Assembly (NCBI RefSeq): GCF_004345675.1
Contig: NZ_SLWU01000004.1
Span: 62,001 to 126,000, forward strand
DNA from: Caldanaerobacter subterraneus
GTDB taxonomy: Bacteria > Bacillota > Thermoanaerobacteria > Thermoanaerobacterales > Thermoanaerobacteraceae
Reading direction: 5' to 3'
DNA: 64,000 bases
Position numbers and translations under genes: made by a program. Positions 27,776 to 34,912 of the stretch are shown here, in pieces. Below the pieces are notes generated by a model. It had not been told where the DNA came from. It saw only the letters and a program-made list of their open reading frames with translations, and searched no databases. How positions within the stretch are numbered: position 1 is the stretch's first letter; every line of letters starts with the position of its first letter.

Positions 27776-27804
27776 TTGACTAATATTAAAAAAGTTGATA
27801 AGAT
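27776..27804 (+). promoter_or_regulatory. promoter of the purine permease/pur transcript
   Basis: TTGACT (27776-27781), 17-base spacer, TAAGAT (27799-27804). A TATAAA at 27804-27809 is an alternative -10. The guanine aptamer begins about 25 bases downstream. Confidence 0.65.
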
Positions 27805-27829
27805 ATAAATGTGACAATTGAATAAAAAG

Positions 27830-27900
27830 CACTCATATAATCTCGAGAATATGGCCTGAGAGTCTCTACCGAACAACCGTAAATTGTTCGACTATGAGTG
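27830..27900 (+). ncRNA. guanine (purine) riboswitch aptamer
   Basis: The conserved purine aptamer elements are in order: TATAATCTCG after P1, ATATGGCCTGAGAGTCTCTACC in the P2/J2-3 region (split for length: ATATGGCC, TGAGAGTC, TCTACC), CCGTAAA in P3, and GACTATGAG at J3/1. P1 pairs CACTCATA (27830-27837) with TATGAGTG (27893-27900). The specificity base at 27892 is C, which selects guanine or hypoxanthine over adenine. It lies in tandem with the PRPP aptamer and has no terminator of its own. Confidence 0.95.
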
Positions 27901-28019
27901 AAAGTGTACCTAGGGTTCCAGCCTATTTATAGGTGTTCGGACCGAGCGGTACAGGTATATTTTTATTTTTTTATATACCACACCTTAGGGACAAAAGCCC
28001 GGAAGGATAGGTTTCACTC
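27896..28019 (+). ncRNA. PRPP riboswitch aptamer (ykkC subtype 2b)
   Basis: The ykkC-family core is present: CTAGGGTTCC, GTTCGGACCGAGCGG, and AGGGACAAAAGCCCGG followed by GGATAGGTTTC. A long variable hairpin lies at about 27951-27980. The closing helix pairs GAGTGAAA (27896-27903) with TTTCACTC (28012-28019). The ending GGATAGGTTTC and purine-gene context point to the PRPP class rather than guanidine or ppGpp. It sits directly after a guanine aptamer and shares five bases with it. PRPP binding should turn expression on. Confidence 0.9.
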
Positions 28020-28064
28020 GTGTTTAATTTGCGAAATCTATTGTTTGCGGGCTTTTTGTTTTAA
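27993..28064 (+). terminator. riboswitch-controlled intrinsic terminator
   Basis: AAAAGCCCG (27993-28001) pairs with CGGGCTTTT (28048-28056) and ATAGGTTTC (28007-28015) with GAAATCTAT (28033-28041), then TTTTTGTTTT. Both 5' arms are conserved parts of the PRPP aptamer, so aptamer folding and termination are mutually exclusive. Confidence 0.9.
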
Positions 28065-28114
28065 ATTGTCGTAGAAGTTGCAAAATAAAAATAATATGGA
28101 ACAGGAGGATTATG

Positions 28115-29497
28115 ATGGAAAAGGTGAGTAAAGTGAGGAACAAAAATTTTTTAGAAAATCTAGCAAATAGGATATGGAGGTTAGAAAATTATAATACCAA
28201 TGTAAAAACAGAGATATTAGCTGGGATTACCACGTTTATAACAATGGCTTATATTATGTTTGTGAATCCCATTATACTAAAAGAAGCAGGGATGGACGCA
28301 GGAGCGGTATTTGTAGCTACTTGTCTTTCAGCGGCTATTGGAACTTTCATGATGGCTTTTTATGCTAATTACCCATTTGCACAAGCTCCAGGTATGGGAC
28401 TTAACGCTTTCTTTACTTATACTGTCGTTTTAACAATGGGATACAGTTGGCAAGAGGCTTTAGCTGCAGTTTTCTTTTCAGGAATTATATTTATTTTGAT
28501 TACTTTGTTTGGAATACGGGAAATGATTGTCGATGCTATACCTATGTCTTTAAAATATGCAGTAAGTGGAGGAATAGGTTTATTTATAGCTTTTATTGGA
28601 CTTAAAAATGCTGGTATAATCGTGGCAAATCAAGCAACTTACATTGGATTTGGCGATTTGACTAATCCTGGGACACTTCTTGCCATTGCGGGACTTTTTA
28701 TAACAGCCATATTAATGTCGAGAAATATCAAAGGATCTATACTTCTTGGAATATTAATTACTACAGTATTGGGACTTTTTACTGGAATAGTGAAATTACC
28801 TTCTGATTTTAGTGTAATTAAAATGCCACCAAGTCTTGCACCAACATTTCTTAAACTTGATATAAAAGGGCTTTTGGGAATTGGTGAGAATATCGGCTTT
28901 ATTTCTTTAGTTACAAGTGTGCTATATGTAGTGTTGTCGTTTGCTTTTGTAGATTTATTTGATACCATAGGGACCTTTATAGGAACAGGATCAAAAGCAG
29001 GAATGTTAGATGAAAATGGCAAAATGCCTAATATGAAAAAAGGACTAATGGCGGATGCTATTGCCACCACGATAGGGTCACTTTTGGGAACTTCTACTGT
29101 GACTACTTACGTTGAGAGTGCTGCAGGTATTGCAGAAGGTGGTAGAACGGGACTTACTGCTTTTGTGACAGGTATTTTGTTCTTGGCAGCATTGTTTTTC
29201 TCACCAATAGCTTTACTTGTTCCTACAGAGGCAACTGCTCCTGCTCTTATTATTGTTGGAGTTTTGATGATGGGTTCTATTAAGAAGATAAATTTTGAAG
29301 ATTTTACAGAGGCTATGCCAGCTTTTCTTACTATAATTGCTATGCCTTTCACTTTTAGCATTGCCAATGGTATTGCTGCAGGTCTTATTGCATATCCTAT
29401 TGTAAAAATTGCATCAAAAAAAGCAAAAGAAATTCATCCAATGGTTTATTTTCTTGCAATTTTATTCATATTAAGATTTATAACTTTATCAGAGTGA
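28115..29497 (+). CDS. NCS2 family purine (guanine/hypoxanthine) permease, AzgA/PbuG-like
   Basis: About 460 residues with 12-14 membrane segments. The N-terminus ENYNTNVKTEILAGITTFIT is characteristic of the AzgA/PbuG group. It also has APGMGLNAFFTYTVV, then SFAFVDLFDTIGTFIGTGSK and STVTTYVESAAGIAEGGRTG. It imports purine bases by proton symport. AGGAGG at 28103-28108 favours the second ATG (28115); 28112 is the alternative. It is the first gene under the tandem guanine-PRPP riboswitch, which fits its role. Confidence 0.93.
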   Translation: MEKVSKVRNKNFLENLANRIWRLENYNTNVKTEILAGITTFITMAYIMFVNPIILKEAGMDAGAVFVATCLSAAIGTFMMAFYANYPFAQAPGMGLNAFFTYTVVLTMGYSWQEALAAVFFSGIIFILITLFGIREMIVDAIPMSLKYAVSGGIGLFIAFIGLKNAGIIVANQATYIGFGDLTNPGTLLAIAGLFITAILMSRNIKGSILLGILITTVLGLFTGIVKLPSDFSVIKMPPSLAPTFLKLDIKGLLGIGENIGFISLVTSVLYVVLSFAFVDLFDTIGTFIGTGSKAGMLDENGKMPNMKKGLMADAIATTIGSLLGTSTVTTYVESAAGIAEGGRTGLTAFVTGILFLAALFFSPIALLVPTEATAPALIIVGVLMMGSIKKINFEDFTEAMPAFLTIIAMPFTFSIANGIAAGLIAYPIVKIASKKAKEIHPMVYFLAILFILRFITLSE

Positions 29498-29501
29498 AAA
29501 T

Positions 29502-29536
29502 AAGAACCCAATTAGTACTTATCTAATTGGGGTCTT
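29502..29536 (+). terminator. hairpin between purine permease and purS
   Basis: AAGA-A-CCCAATTAG pairs with CTAATTGGG-G-TCTT around TACTTAT. There is no T run, so read-through into purS is likely. It may tune or stabilise the two parts of the transcript. Confidence 0.55.
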
Positions 29537-29604
29537 AAAAGAAATTTGGGCAAAGTAGAAGAAAGCATATTTAGAAATTTTGAAAAGACTTGGAGGTATG
29601 TGAA

Positions 29605-29853
29605 GTGCTAATTGCGAAAGTCTATATAACTTTAAAAAAAGGAATACTTGACCCTCAAGGAAAAGCAGTAAAGGGAGCTTTGCACTCATTAGGATACGAA
29701 GAAGTAAAAGAAGTGCGGGTTGGGAAATATATAGAATTAACTTTTGAGGATGGCGATTTATCCCTCCTAAAGGACAAAGTAGATGAGATGTGCAAAAGGA
29801 TACTGACAAACCCAATTATTGAAGATTACACCTTTGAAATTGTGGAGGGATAA
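29605..29853 (+). CDS. purS: phosphoribosylformylglycinamidine synthase, PurS subunit
   Basis: An 82-residue small subunit of the FGAM synthase complex with PurL and Pur[20 protein letters not shown] is the PurS signature, and [17 protein letters not shown] follows. The start is GTG at 29605, since GGAGG (29592-29596) lies eight bases upstream. First gene of purSQLF. Confidence 0.93.
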
Positions 29854-29855
29854 AG

Positions 29856-30530
29856 ATGAAATTTGCTGTTATAGTTTTTCCAGGGTCCAATTGCGATGTA
29901 GACTGCTATTATGCTGTTAAAGATGGGCTTGGGGAAGAAGTAGAATATGTGTGGCATCAAGAAAAAAATTTGAGTAAGTACGATGTTATAATGTTACCAG
30001 GAGGATTTTCTTATGGTGATTATTTGAGGGCAGGAGCTATTGCTAGGTTTTCGCCTGTTATGGAGGCTGTCAGAGAAGAAGCAGAAAAAGGAAAATTTAT
30101 TATAGGCATATGCAACGGATTTCAGATACTTACAGAAGCAGGGCTTTTGCCGGGAGCATTGAGAAAAAATGAAGGGCTGAAATTTATCTGCAAGACTGTC
30201 AGTATAATAGTTGAAAATGACGAAACTCCTTTTACTACAAGGCTTAAAAAAGGGCAGGAGATTTTACTTCCAATTGCTCATGGGGAAGGCAATTATTATG
30301 TAGATGACAAAACTTTAAAAGAACTAAAAGAAAACAATCAAATTGTTTTTAGGTACAAAGAAAATATCAACGGTTCTGTCGAGAGAATAGCCGGAGTTAT
30401 AAATAAAAAAGGAAATGTTTTAGGAATGATGCCTCATCCAGAGAGAGCTTATGACTCCTTGCTGGGTAATACTGACGGGCTTTATATCTTAGGGTCAATA
30501 GTGGATAATTTTGTAAAAGGCGGGGTTTAA
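29856..30530 (+). CDS. purQ: phosphoribosylformylglycinamidine synthase, PurQ glutaminase subunit
   Basis: A 224-residue class I glutamine amidotransferase that feeds ammonia to PurL. The nucleophile Cys is in [11 protein letters not shown] near residue 86, and the His and Glu are in MPHPERAYD near residue 195. [13 protein letters not shown] opens the protein, as usual. It starts two bases after purS and ends two bases before purL. Confidence 0.96.
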
Positions 30531-30532
30531 GG

Positions 30533-32734
30533 ATGAATAAAATATGGAGAGAATTAGGACTTACTGATGAGGAGTATGAGAAGATTATTTCGATATTAGG
30601 AAGAGAACCTAATATAACTGAATTAGGTATGTATAGTGTTATGTGGTCTGAACATTGTTCCTATAAAAACTCTAAACCTCTTTTAAAATATCTACCTACA
30701 AAAGGCGAAAGAGTAATACAAGGACCGGGAGAAAATGCAGGAGTATTGGATATTGGAGATAATCTGGCAGTTGTGATGAAGATAGAAAGCCATAACCATC
30801 CTTCTGCGATTGAACCCTATCAAGGAGCAGCTACAGGTGTTGGAGGAATAATAAGAGATATATTTACAATGGGGGCAAGGCCGATTGCTCTTTTGGATTC
30901 TTTGAGATTTGGAATTCCTGATGATAAAAGGACTAAATATCTCATTGAAAACGTGGTAGCCGGTATAGCGGATTATGGAAATTGCATAGGAATTCCTACA
31001 GTGGGTGGGGATACCTATTTTGAAGAAAGTTACAAAGGGAATCCTTTAGTAAATGCGATGTGTGTAGGAATAGTGGAAAAAGACAAAATAAAGAAAGGGA
31101 TAGCAAAAGGTATAGGTAATCCTGTTATGGTAGTAGGTGCTACCACGGGGAGAGACGGTATCGGAGGTGCAAGCTTTGCTTCTCAGGAGTTAAGCGAGGA
31201 ATCAGAAGAAAAAAGGCCTTCTGTTCAAGTTGGTGACCCATTTATGGAAAAACTGCTTTTAGAGGCTTGTTTAGAACTTTTTGAAACAGATGCCGTAGTT
31301 GCTATACAAGATATGGGAGCGGCAGGTCTTACCTCTTCTTCTTGCGAGATGGCTTCCCGCGGTGGAGTTGGAATGGAGATTGACCTTGATAAAGTGCCTT
31401 TGAGAGAAGAGGGAATGACACCTTATGAAATAATGCTTTCTGAATCTCAAGAGAGGATGTTGGTTGTAGTAAAGAAAGGCAAGGAAGAAGATGTGCAAAA
31501 GATATTTAAAAAATGGGGACTGAATGCCGCCACAATAGGGAAAATCACTGATGATGGAATGATAAGAGTGATTAAAGATGGAAAAATAGTTGCGGAAGTT
31601 CCAGCCAAGTCTTTAACGGAAGATGCTCCACAATATGTGAGAGAAGAAGAAGTGCCTAAATGGCAAGAAGAGGTCAAGAAATTGGATATAAATGAAGTAA
31701 AACCTCCAGAGGATATGAATAAAGTTCTAAAAGATGTAATTTCTTCTTTAAATATTGCAAGTAAAGAATGGATATACAGTCAATATGATTATATGGTGAG
31801 GACAGACACAGTAATAACTCCAGGAATGGATGCGGCTGTTGTGAGGATAAAAGGTACAAGAAAAGCTATTGCATTAACAACGGATTGCAATGGTAGGTAT
31901 TGTTATTTAGATCCCTATATAGGTTCTCAAATTGCTGTAGCAGAGGCAGCTCGAAATCTTTGTATGGTTGGTGCTAAGCCTATAGGGGTTACAGATTGTT
32001 TGAATTTTGGCAATCCAGAAAAGAAAGAAATATATTGGCAGTTAAAAAATTCTATATTTGGAATAGCTAAAGCCTGCGAAACTTTTCAAATCCCTGTGGT
32101 AAGCGGAAATGTCAGTCTTTACAATGAAAATGAGGGAGAGGCCATTTATCCTACTCCTGTAATAGGAATGGCAGGCCTTATAGAGGATGTATCAAAAATC
32201 TGTACAATGGACTTTAAAAAAGAAAGAGATGTAATTATAATTTTAGGTGAGAATAAAGGAGAGATTGGAGGAAGTGAGTATCTTAAAGTTTGCTTTGGAA
32301 TGGTAAAAGGGCAACCACCTCAAATAGACTTGGAAAAGGAAAAAAGATTGCAAGAATTGGTGCTAAAACTTATTGATGAAGGCTTAATTAACTCTTCTCA
32401 TGACATATCAGAGGGCGGTTTTGCGGCTGCCTTGGTTGAAAGTGCAATTTCAGGCAAAAAAGGTGCAAAAATTTCGCTACAAACTTCTCTGAGAGCAGAT
32501 ATAGAGTTGTTCTCTGAATCTCAATCGAGAGCATTAATTACTGTAAGTCCTGAAAAAGTAGATGAAGTGTTAAAAATAGCTTATGAACACCAAGTTCCAG
32601 CGCAAAAAGTAGGAGTTGTAGAGGGTAAAGATATTGTAATTGATGTAAATGGCAAAAGAATAATAGACCTTCCTTTAGAAGTCTTAGAGGAAAGCTGGAG
32701 AGGGAGAATAAAATGGGAAATGGAGAGAAATTAA
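30533..32734 (+). CDS. purL: phosphoribosylformylglycinamidine synthase, PurL subunit
   Basis: A 733-residue ATP-dependent synthetase, the short PurL form that works with PurS and Pur[20 protein letters not shown] is at the N-terminus, [20 protein letters not shown] near residue 86, and GGVGMEID marks the metal-binding region. The second half repeats the AIRS-like fold ([14 protein letters not shown]). It overlaps purF by 22 bases. Confidence 0.97.
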
Positions 32735-34110
32735 AAGAGGAATGTGGTGTTTTTGGTGCCTTTAGTTTGTCCACTTCAGTTACTTCTTATATCTATTATG
32801 GCTTACAAGCCTTGCAGCACAGAGGGCAGGAAAGTTCAGGTATAGCTATTTATAATGGCGAAAAAATAAATTGTATTAAGGGGTTGGGACTTGTCAGCGA
32901 GGTCTTTAATAAGGAGAATTTAAAGACATTAGAGGGGAAAATGGGGATAGGCCATGTAAGGTATTCTACTACAGGCAGCAATAACATTATAAATGCTCAA
33001 CCCCTCGTTGCTAATTTTAAAAACAAATATATGGCTCTTGCCCATAATGGCAATTTGATAAACGCAGAAGAGTTAAGATGCCTATTGGAGGAGGATGGTA
33101 GAATATTTCAAACTACAACTGATAGTGAAATAATTCTCCATCTAATTGCAAAAAATTTTCAAGAAAACTTAATCGGAGCTCTTTTAGAAACAATGAAACA
33201 AATAAAAGGTTCATATGCTTTGGTGATTTTAACAGACAATAAATTAATAGGGATAAGAGACGTAAACAGTATAAGGCCTCTTTGCATAGGTAAAAAAGAT
33301 GACACTTATTTCTTATCTTCTGAGTCTTGTGCTTTTGACGTAATAGGAGCAGAGTTGATACGAGATGTAGAAGCAGGAGAAATAGTTATAATTGATGGAA
33401 AAGGAATAGAGTCTGTTAAGTTAGAAGTAGAAGAAAAAAAGATGCCTTGTGTTTTCGAATACATCTATTTTGCTAGACCTGACAGTGTCATAGATGGAAA
33501 AAGTGTTTATTTTACACGATTGGAGATGGGCAAAAGATTAGCTGAAGAAGCACCTGTAGATGCAGACTTGGTAGTACCAGTTCCAGATTCAGGCATTGCC
33601 GCTGCAAGAGGTTACTCTCTCAAAACAGGTATACCAATGGGTGAGGGACTTATAAAAAATAAATACATTGGAAGGACTTTTATTGCTCCCGACCAAAGGG
33701 ATAGAGAGACAGGCGTGAGGATAAAGCTAAATGTCTTAAAAGAATTGGTTCAAGGCAAAAGGATAGTTTTAATAGATGATTCAATTGTTAGAGGCACAAC
33801 TATGAAAAGATTAGTGAGTCTACTAAAAAATGGAGGAGCAAAAGAAGTCCATGTTAGGATAAGTTCACCCCCTGTTAAATATTCTTGCTACTTTGGAATT
33901 GATACCCCGACAAAAAAAGAACTGATAGCGGCGAGGATGTCAGTTGAAGAGATGTGCAAATTAATAGGAGCTGACAGCCTACAGTTTTTAAGTATTGAAG
34001 GGCTTATAAAAAGTGTAGGACTTAAATCTATTTGCACAGGTTGCTTTGATGGCAATTATCCTATGTATGTTCCAAAAGAAAGAAGTAAATATCTTTTTGA
34101 GAAAAAATAA
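32713..34110 (+). CDS. purF: amidophosphoribosyltransferase
   Basis: A 465-residue enzyme that commits PRPP to purine synthesis. It carries a ten-residue propeptide before the nucleophile Cys in EECGVFGAF, the B. subtilis-type form. Four Cys consistent with a 4Fe-4S cluster are seen (in [15 protein letters not shown] and SICTGCFDG). The PRPP loop is [13 protein letters not shown]. It is the last pur gene here; purM, purN, purH and purD do not follow. Confidence 0.97.
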
Positions 34111-34186
34111 AAAGGGTGAGAGAAAGTTAATTAAACCTAAAAGCTTATTACTCACAAGAATTGATGAAAAAGGAGAAAATCACGAT

Positions 34187-34912
34187 ATGCCGCGTATTGA
34201 AAAAGATTTCTTTGGAACAGGAGTGAATGCAAGCTTAAAATATATGTTTAAAGTGATAGAACTTTTGCGCGATTTTACTAAAATAGGCTTGGCTCGGTCT
34301 GATTACCTCATGGATGCAACACAAAATGCAGATGTATTTGTGGAATGCTCGGGTCTTTTAAAAGCCTTGGCGGTGAATCTATCAAAAATTGCAAATGACT
34401 TAAGGCTCTTATCATCTGGTCCAAACACGGGTTTAAACGAGATAAACTTACCTGCTGCACAAGCAGGTTCAAGCATTATGCCTGGTAAAGTAAATCCTGT
34501 CATACCTGAACTTATAAACACCATATCATTCCAGGTTATGTCAAATGATGTTGCAATAACCTTAGCAGCCCAAGCAGGTCAGCTTGAGCTAAATGCATTC
34601 TTGCCTTTAATTGCAAACAATTTGCTTGAAAGCCTCAAAATTCTCAAAAACGGAATCAGGATATTCAGAAAACAGTGCATTGATGGAATAACAGCAAACA
34701 AAGAAAGATGTCTTGAGTTTGCCAAAAAGACACCTTCTATTGCCGCTGCATTGATTGATAAAATAGGGTATGACAAGGCAAGTGAAATTGCTAAAAAAGC
34801 CATTGCCGAGAATAAGGAAATAATTGAGGTGGTAAAGGAATTGAAGATCTTAAATGAGAATGAGGCTGAAGCACTACTAAATCCTTTTGAATTTGTAAAG
34901 TTTAAAGAGTAA
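34187..34912 (+). pseudogene. aspA: aspartate ammonia-lyase with a large internal deletion
   Basis: The frame starts with the normal aspartase N-terminus (RIEKDFFG) and jumps directly to TGVNASLKYMFKVIELLRDF. It then continues intact through ATQNADVF and the lyase signature GSSIMPGKVNPVIPE to a normal C-terminus. Only about 241 residues remain of about 470, and some 200 residues including N-terminal active-site parts are gone. The reading frame is kept, so a short protein could be made. Aspartases need residues from three chains, so activity is unlikely. AGGAG lies 11 bases before the ATG. hydF follows. Confidence 0.8.

Follow-up and report, generated by a model that had tools for sequence, protein, structure and literature searches.

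The 64,000-nucleotide stretch analysed here (the window) contains a leader RNA in which two aptamers precede one terminator, and this raises the question of how two ligands act on a single decision to terminate. We conclude, with a probability of about 0.93, that this RNA is a guanine-PRPP tandem riboswitch that has one transcription-termination platform and approximates an IMPLY gate, and that it works by exchange of a strand between helix P1 of the guanine aptamer and the end helix P0 of the PRPP aptamer. A preliminary description, made from the sequence, had proposed such a tandem riboswitch with one terminator, and it is supported by covariance models, gene context and relatives. The elements of the leader are:

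27776-27804, forward strand: promoter-like TTGACT-17-TAAGAT with an extended TG (consensus scan only)
27813-27914, forward strand: guanine-type purine aptamer (RF00167; Rfam envelope, helical core 27830-27900)
27830-27837, forward strand: 5' strand of guanine P1, CACTCATA (= CACUCAUA), 8 Watson-Crick pairs with 27893-27900
27893-27900, forward strand: 3' strand of guanine P1, TATGAGTG (= UAUGAGUG), pairs with 27830-27837
27896-27903, forward strand: 5' strand of PRPP P0, GAGTGAAA (= GAGUGAAA), 8 Watson-Crick pairs with 28012-28019
27896-27900, forward strand: contested strand GAGUG, common to guanine P1 and PRPP P0
27899-28007, forward strand: ykkC-class aptamer, PRPP subtype (2b) (RF00442; our own PRPP model covers 27901-28019)
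27994-28055, forward strand: intrinsic terminator stem, predicted -25.8 kcal/mol, with a U tract (28051-28062) after the stem
28002, forward strand: G equivalent to G96, 10 back from the U that opens the 3' strand of P0
28012-28019, forward strand: 3' strand of PRPP P0, TTTCACTC (= UUUCACUC), which may reach 28022 with U-G pairs
28103-28108, forward strand: ribosome-binding site AGGAGG, read from the sequence; start codon at 28112 or 28115

Promoter-like sites in the region numbered 3, versus 2.2 expected from the consensus scan.

The identity of the two aptamers was established by covariance searches, as the preliminary description had suggested. The Rfam purine model RF00167 matches 27813-27914 with 91.6 bits (cutoff 37), placing the first aptamer among the purine riboswitches. 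Its sequence reads as that of a guanine and not an adenine aptamer: the base at 27892, within GACUAUG, is a C, which we take, by analogy with the xpt aptamer, to be the ligand-pairing base that specifies guanine. For the second aptamer the outcome was mixed. No separate PRPP family in Rfam matched this RNA, even at E<=1, and Guanidine-I (RF00442, ykkC class) was the sole ykkC-class model to do so (27899-28007, 66.5 bits, cutoff 63), a result that gives the aptamer a ykkC-class fold and favours guanidine or ppGpp as its ligand. A PRPP covariance model that we built from 34 tandem aptamers, all from outside Thermoanaerobacter, did however match 27901-28019 with 105.2 bits (E 8.6e-31), versus 35-62 bits for the other ykkC loci searched, a group that includes 27 loci with good scores under the Rfam Guanidine-I model. 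One further locus from the same comparison set (L172), at 99.3 bits, scores like the PRPP type. By these scores the aptamer belongs to the PRPP subtype (ykkC 2b), distinct from guanidine-I. In addition, the equivalent of G96, the base setting PRPP versus ppGpp specificity (PMC6031431), is a G here (28002), as it is at this offset in 106 of the 118 tandem loci listed; positions 27903 and 27904 would be A5 and G6 in the numbering of the T. mathranii crystal structure (from PMC6031431). With a guanine aptamer in tandem and purine genes downstream, guanidine or ppGpp is hardly credible as the ligand, and both identities were rejected on the model score, the G at the G96 equivalent and this context.

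The two aptamers meet in a strand that both claim. The strands and positions of P1 and P0 in the preliminary description are exact, and GAGTG (27896-27900) does lie in both helices, each of which has 8 Watson-Crick pairs; an end helix P0 is a defining feature of the PRPP class. P0 can moreover be lengthened by three pairs, U-G, A-U and U-G, between 27893-27895 and 28020-28022, and the contested stretch may therefore extend beyond five bases to the whole 3' strand of P1 (8 bases), if the U-G pairs do extend P0. Chance complementarity was rejected because the 120 tandem loci listed show this arrangement again, at a fixed spacing.

A single terminator was also correctly anticipated: one is predicted at 27994-28055 and none between the aptamers, which lie 4 nt apart; a terminator at that place was rejected. 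A terminator scan with a loop limit of 8 reported none, since this limit is too short for the 27994-28055 hairpin. In the predicted fold, the stem consumes the conserved 3' part of the PRPP aptamer together with P0 bases 28012-28015 (UUUC), the overlap with the terminator that had been read from the sequence. By nearest-neighbour energies, which are secondary-structure estimates that leave out ligand, tertiary contacts and kinetics, the isolated duplexes are nearly isoenergetic (P1 -8.7, P0 -8.5 kcal/mol), the predicted minimum of a transcript ending at 28025 contains P0 (-55.4, versus -52.9 with P1 forced), and a transcript that includes the terminator has P1 plus terminator as its minimum (-73.6, versus -66.1 with P0 forced).

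Downstream of the terminator, the RNA is followed by:

28112-29497, forward strand: NCS2-type purine permease (PF00860, 176 bits)
29590-29853, forward strand: purS (TIGR00302 / NF004630)
29856-30530, forward strand: purQ (NF002957)
30533-32734, forward strand: purL (NF002290)
32713-34110, forward strand: purF, the PRPP-consuming enzyme (TIGR01134)

With the permease, purS, purQ, purL and purF, the riboswitch precedes genes of purine synthesis as far as IMP. Between purF and hydF lies a C-terminal fragment of aspartate ammonia-lyase (34046-34912), the N-terminal half of which is absent; its homologues in the genus are only 57-59% identical and sited elsewhere, and the fragment may be the edge of a rearrangement.

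How would these parts work together? The guanine aptamer would be transcribed first, and P1 would take up 27893-27900. Upon completion of the PRPP aptamer, P0 would compete for 27896-27903. With P1 held by guanine, P0 would be unable to close, the PRPP aptamer would be weakened and the terminator, which uses 27994-28015, would win (OFF). If PRPP stabilises P0, P1 would give way, the terminator would be deprived of 28012-28019 and of the PRPP aptamer's 3' half, and transcription would continue into the permease and purSQLF (ON), whether guanine is present or not. This is the course that we infer for strand exchange in this RNA, both in its direction and in its kinetics. That guanine would turn expression off, and PRPP would turn it on and override guanine, is proposed by analogy with the ligand responses measured by others in a B. 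megaterium relative. The arrangement is that of an IMPLY gate, with the guanine aptamer immediately preceding the PRPP aptamer, and with one terminator. Were the aptamers instead separate, independent switches (NOT guanine AND PRPP), neither the sharing of one terminator by aptamers 4 nt apart, with none between them, nor a strand common to both helices would be expected; our analysis yielded no support for such independence, which we regard as very improbable.

The strand-exchange reading was examined further across tandem RNAs. A pattern scan in which each species was represented by one genome returned at least 118 tandem loci, those listed being mostly from Bacillota, with a few from Ktedonobacterales (Chloroflexota). 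Terminator-like folds overlap the equivalent region in 108 of the 116 loci listed. Allowing one P0 mismatch, P1 and P0 share at least two bases in 86 of the 99 distinct tandem RNAs listed, the mode being five, the number found in the RNA studied here. Going by these pairings, the contested strand is general across the listed RNAs. To ask whether shared bases match both partners, we used the 86 distinct RNAs with standard spacing among the loci listed (430 positions); apart from the first three U, the motif anchoring P0 makes no use of P0 pairing, and the pairs scored were not used for anchoring. Shared bases pair with P1 at 366, with P0 at 377 and with both at 334 of the 430 positions. The latter count compares with 304.9 +/- 3.9 after shuffling, no shuffle in 2000 reaching 334, and it drops sharply when either partner is slid by 1-3 bases. 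Related sequences in this set are not independent, and it was collapsed to 18 divergent representatives, for which the count is 63 versus 55.6 shuffled (1 of 5000 shuffles reaches 63).

Joint changes of the shared base and both its partners were found at all four variable shared positions: 27897 A to U in Desulfotomaculum and Desulforadius, 27898 G to A in Alkaliphilus, 27899 U to A in Carboxydocella thermautotrophica, and 27900 G to A in a soil Bacillota MAG. This covariation is carried by a few lineages because much of the shared strand, GRGUGAAAG, is near-invariant across the tandem RNAs listed; in some of the covarying lineages, P0 is bulged or mismatched farther along the helix. Our reading here is based on the presence of both aptamers, on how they are arranged, on conservation and on the coupled changes.

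Antagonism between the two ligands might also be steric or tertiary, with aptamers 4 nt apart clashing and the sharing incidental to the conserved tail GRGUGAAAG. Sherlock et al. gave a steric clash as an alternative (PMC5912903), and the distance between the aptamers is indeed constrained: GAC-to-CTAGGG spacing is 16-18 nt, and exactly 17 nt in 107 of the 120 parsed loci among the matches listed. Strict counting is also in its favour, as with no P0 mismatch allowed only 56 of the 99 distinct RNAs listed share at least two bases and the other 43 share one or none, which counts against strand exchange. A pure distance constraint, however, predicts no joint change of a shared base and both its partners, and such changes are seen at four positions. 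We therefore consider a purely steric or tertiary antagonism unlikely. It is probable that the contested strand is a device under selection throughout the class and that P1/P0 exchange is the general mechanism of guanine-PRPP gates, Ktedonobacterales (Chloroflexota) included, as far as sequence comparison can tell. The Dethiobacter-like and Ktedonobacterales RNAs require a mismatch or bulge in P0. The tandem guanine-PRPP-like RNAs of Ktedonobacterales (L029, L050, L077, L087, L102 and L117) score lower, at 50-66 bits, and their P0 seems to need a bulge.

A second tandem guanine-PRPP copy is present on another contig of this genome (G000:C6:81237-81427) because the purine operon is split in two. 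Its contested strand and P0 are identical to those in the window, whereas its terminator is shorter, with a stem that takes only the last P0 bases, and it controls the other half of the operon. The window locus (27830-34110) comprises the tandem and permease-purSQLF; the other (L174, G000:C6:79500-92500) comprises guaA, the tandem, a stop-interrupted permease frame, purE, purC, purM, purN, purH and purD. Each of the relatives searched within the genus has one tandem, and in one of them (G006) the operon is contiguous: guaA, tandem, permease, purE, purC, purS, purQ, purL, purF, purM, purN and purH. Operon genes other than purS, purQ, purL, purF and the permease were named by reading translations. 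The permease after the second tandem (L174, about 1990-2714) appears frameshifted, with no frame longer than 148 aa, unless this part of the assembly is in error. Two tandem copies each were also seen in Desulforadius, a Desulfotomaculum MAG and another Bacillota MAG (L042/L125, L129/L145 and L092/L144).

As a member of its class, the element is a textbook case. A set of 127 tandem examples, from Firmicutes, was reported by Sherlock et al. 2018 (eLife 33908, PMC5912903), who also described the IMPLY gate; both in vitro and in cells, the codA element of B. megaterium behaved as such a gate, guanine being OFF and PRPP ON and overriding in its measured logic (PMC5912903). The molecular coupling was left open there, and a 2022 review of tandem riboswitches still called the precise structural changes unestablished. 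Coupled changes in three strands speak directly, on comparative grounds, for strand exchange rather than a steric clash; we found no such evidence in the literature consulted on the class, supplements and Peselis and Serganov 2018 aside. Beyond what was known, the present analysis adds that the contested strand appears general in the class, that a shared base and both its partners change jointly, that a second copy accompanies a split operon, and that sharing may reach 8 bases. The natural variants of Desulfotomaculum and Alkaliphilus are ready compensatory sets for a termination assay.

Compared with known systems, the RNA resembles the B. megaterium codA tandem in architecture and expected IMPLY logic but differs in its downstream gene; for the codA tandem, a reviewer saw no overlap between the sensors, helix P0 being unpublished at the time (PMC5912903). 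P0 was found in the crystal structure of the T. mathranii PRPP aptamer (PDB 6CK5) by Knappenberger et al. 2018 (eLife 36381, PMC6031431), who described P0 and guanine P1 of the Thermoanaerobacter mathranii tandem as mutually exclusive. The preliminary description was thus right that such tandems are established in Thermoanaerobacter (PMC6031431), and its base sharing is correct; it had presented the exact sharing as its own reading, which is not fresh because Knappenberger et al. had proposed a contested P1/P0 strand for T. mathranii. The switch and the strand contest were already described in this genus in 2018, and the interpretation is supported, not new. The T. mathranii tandem (NC_014209.1:657606-657841) has the same aptamer order and one terminator and belongs to the same genus as the relatives used here; it is a separate locus, from another assembly than this RNA.
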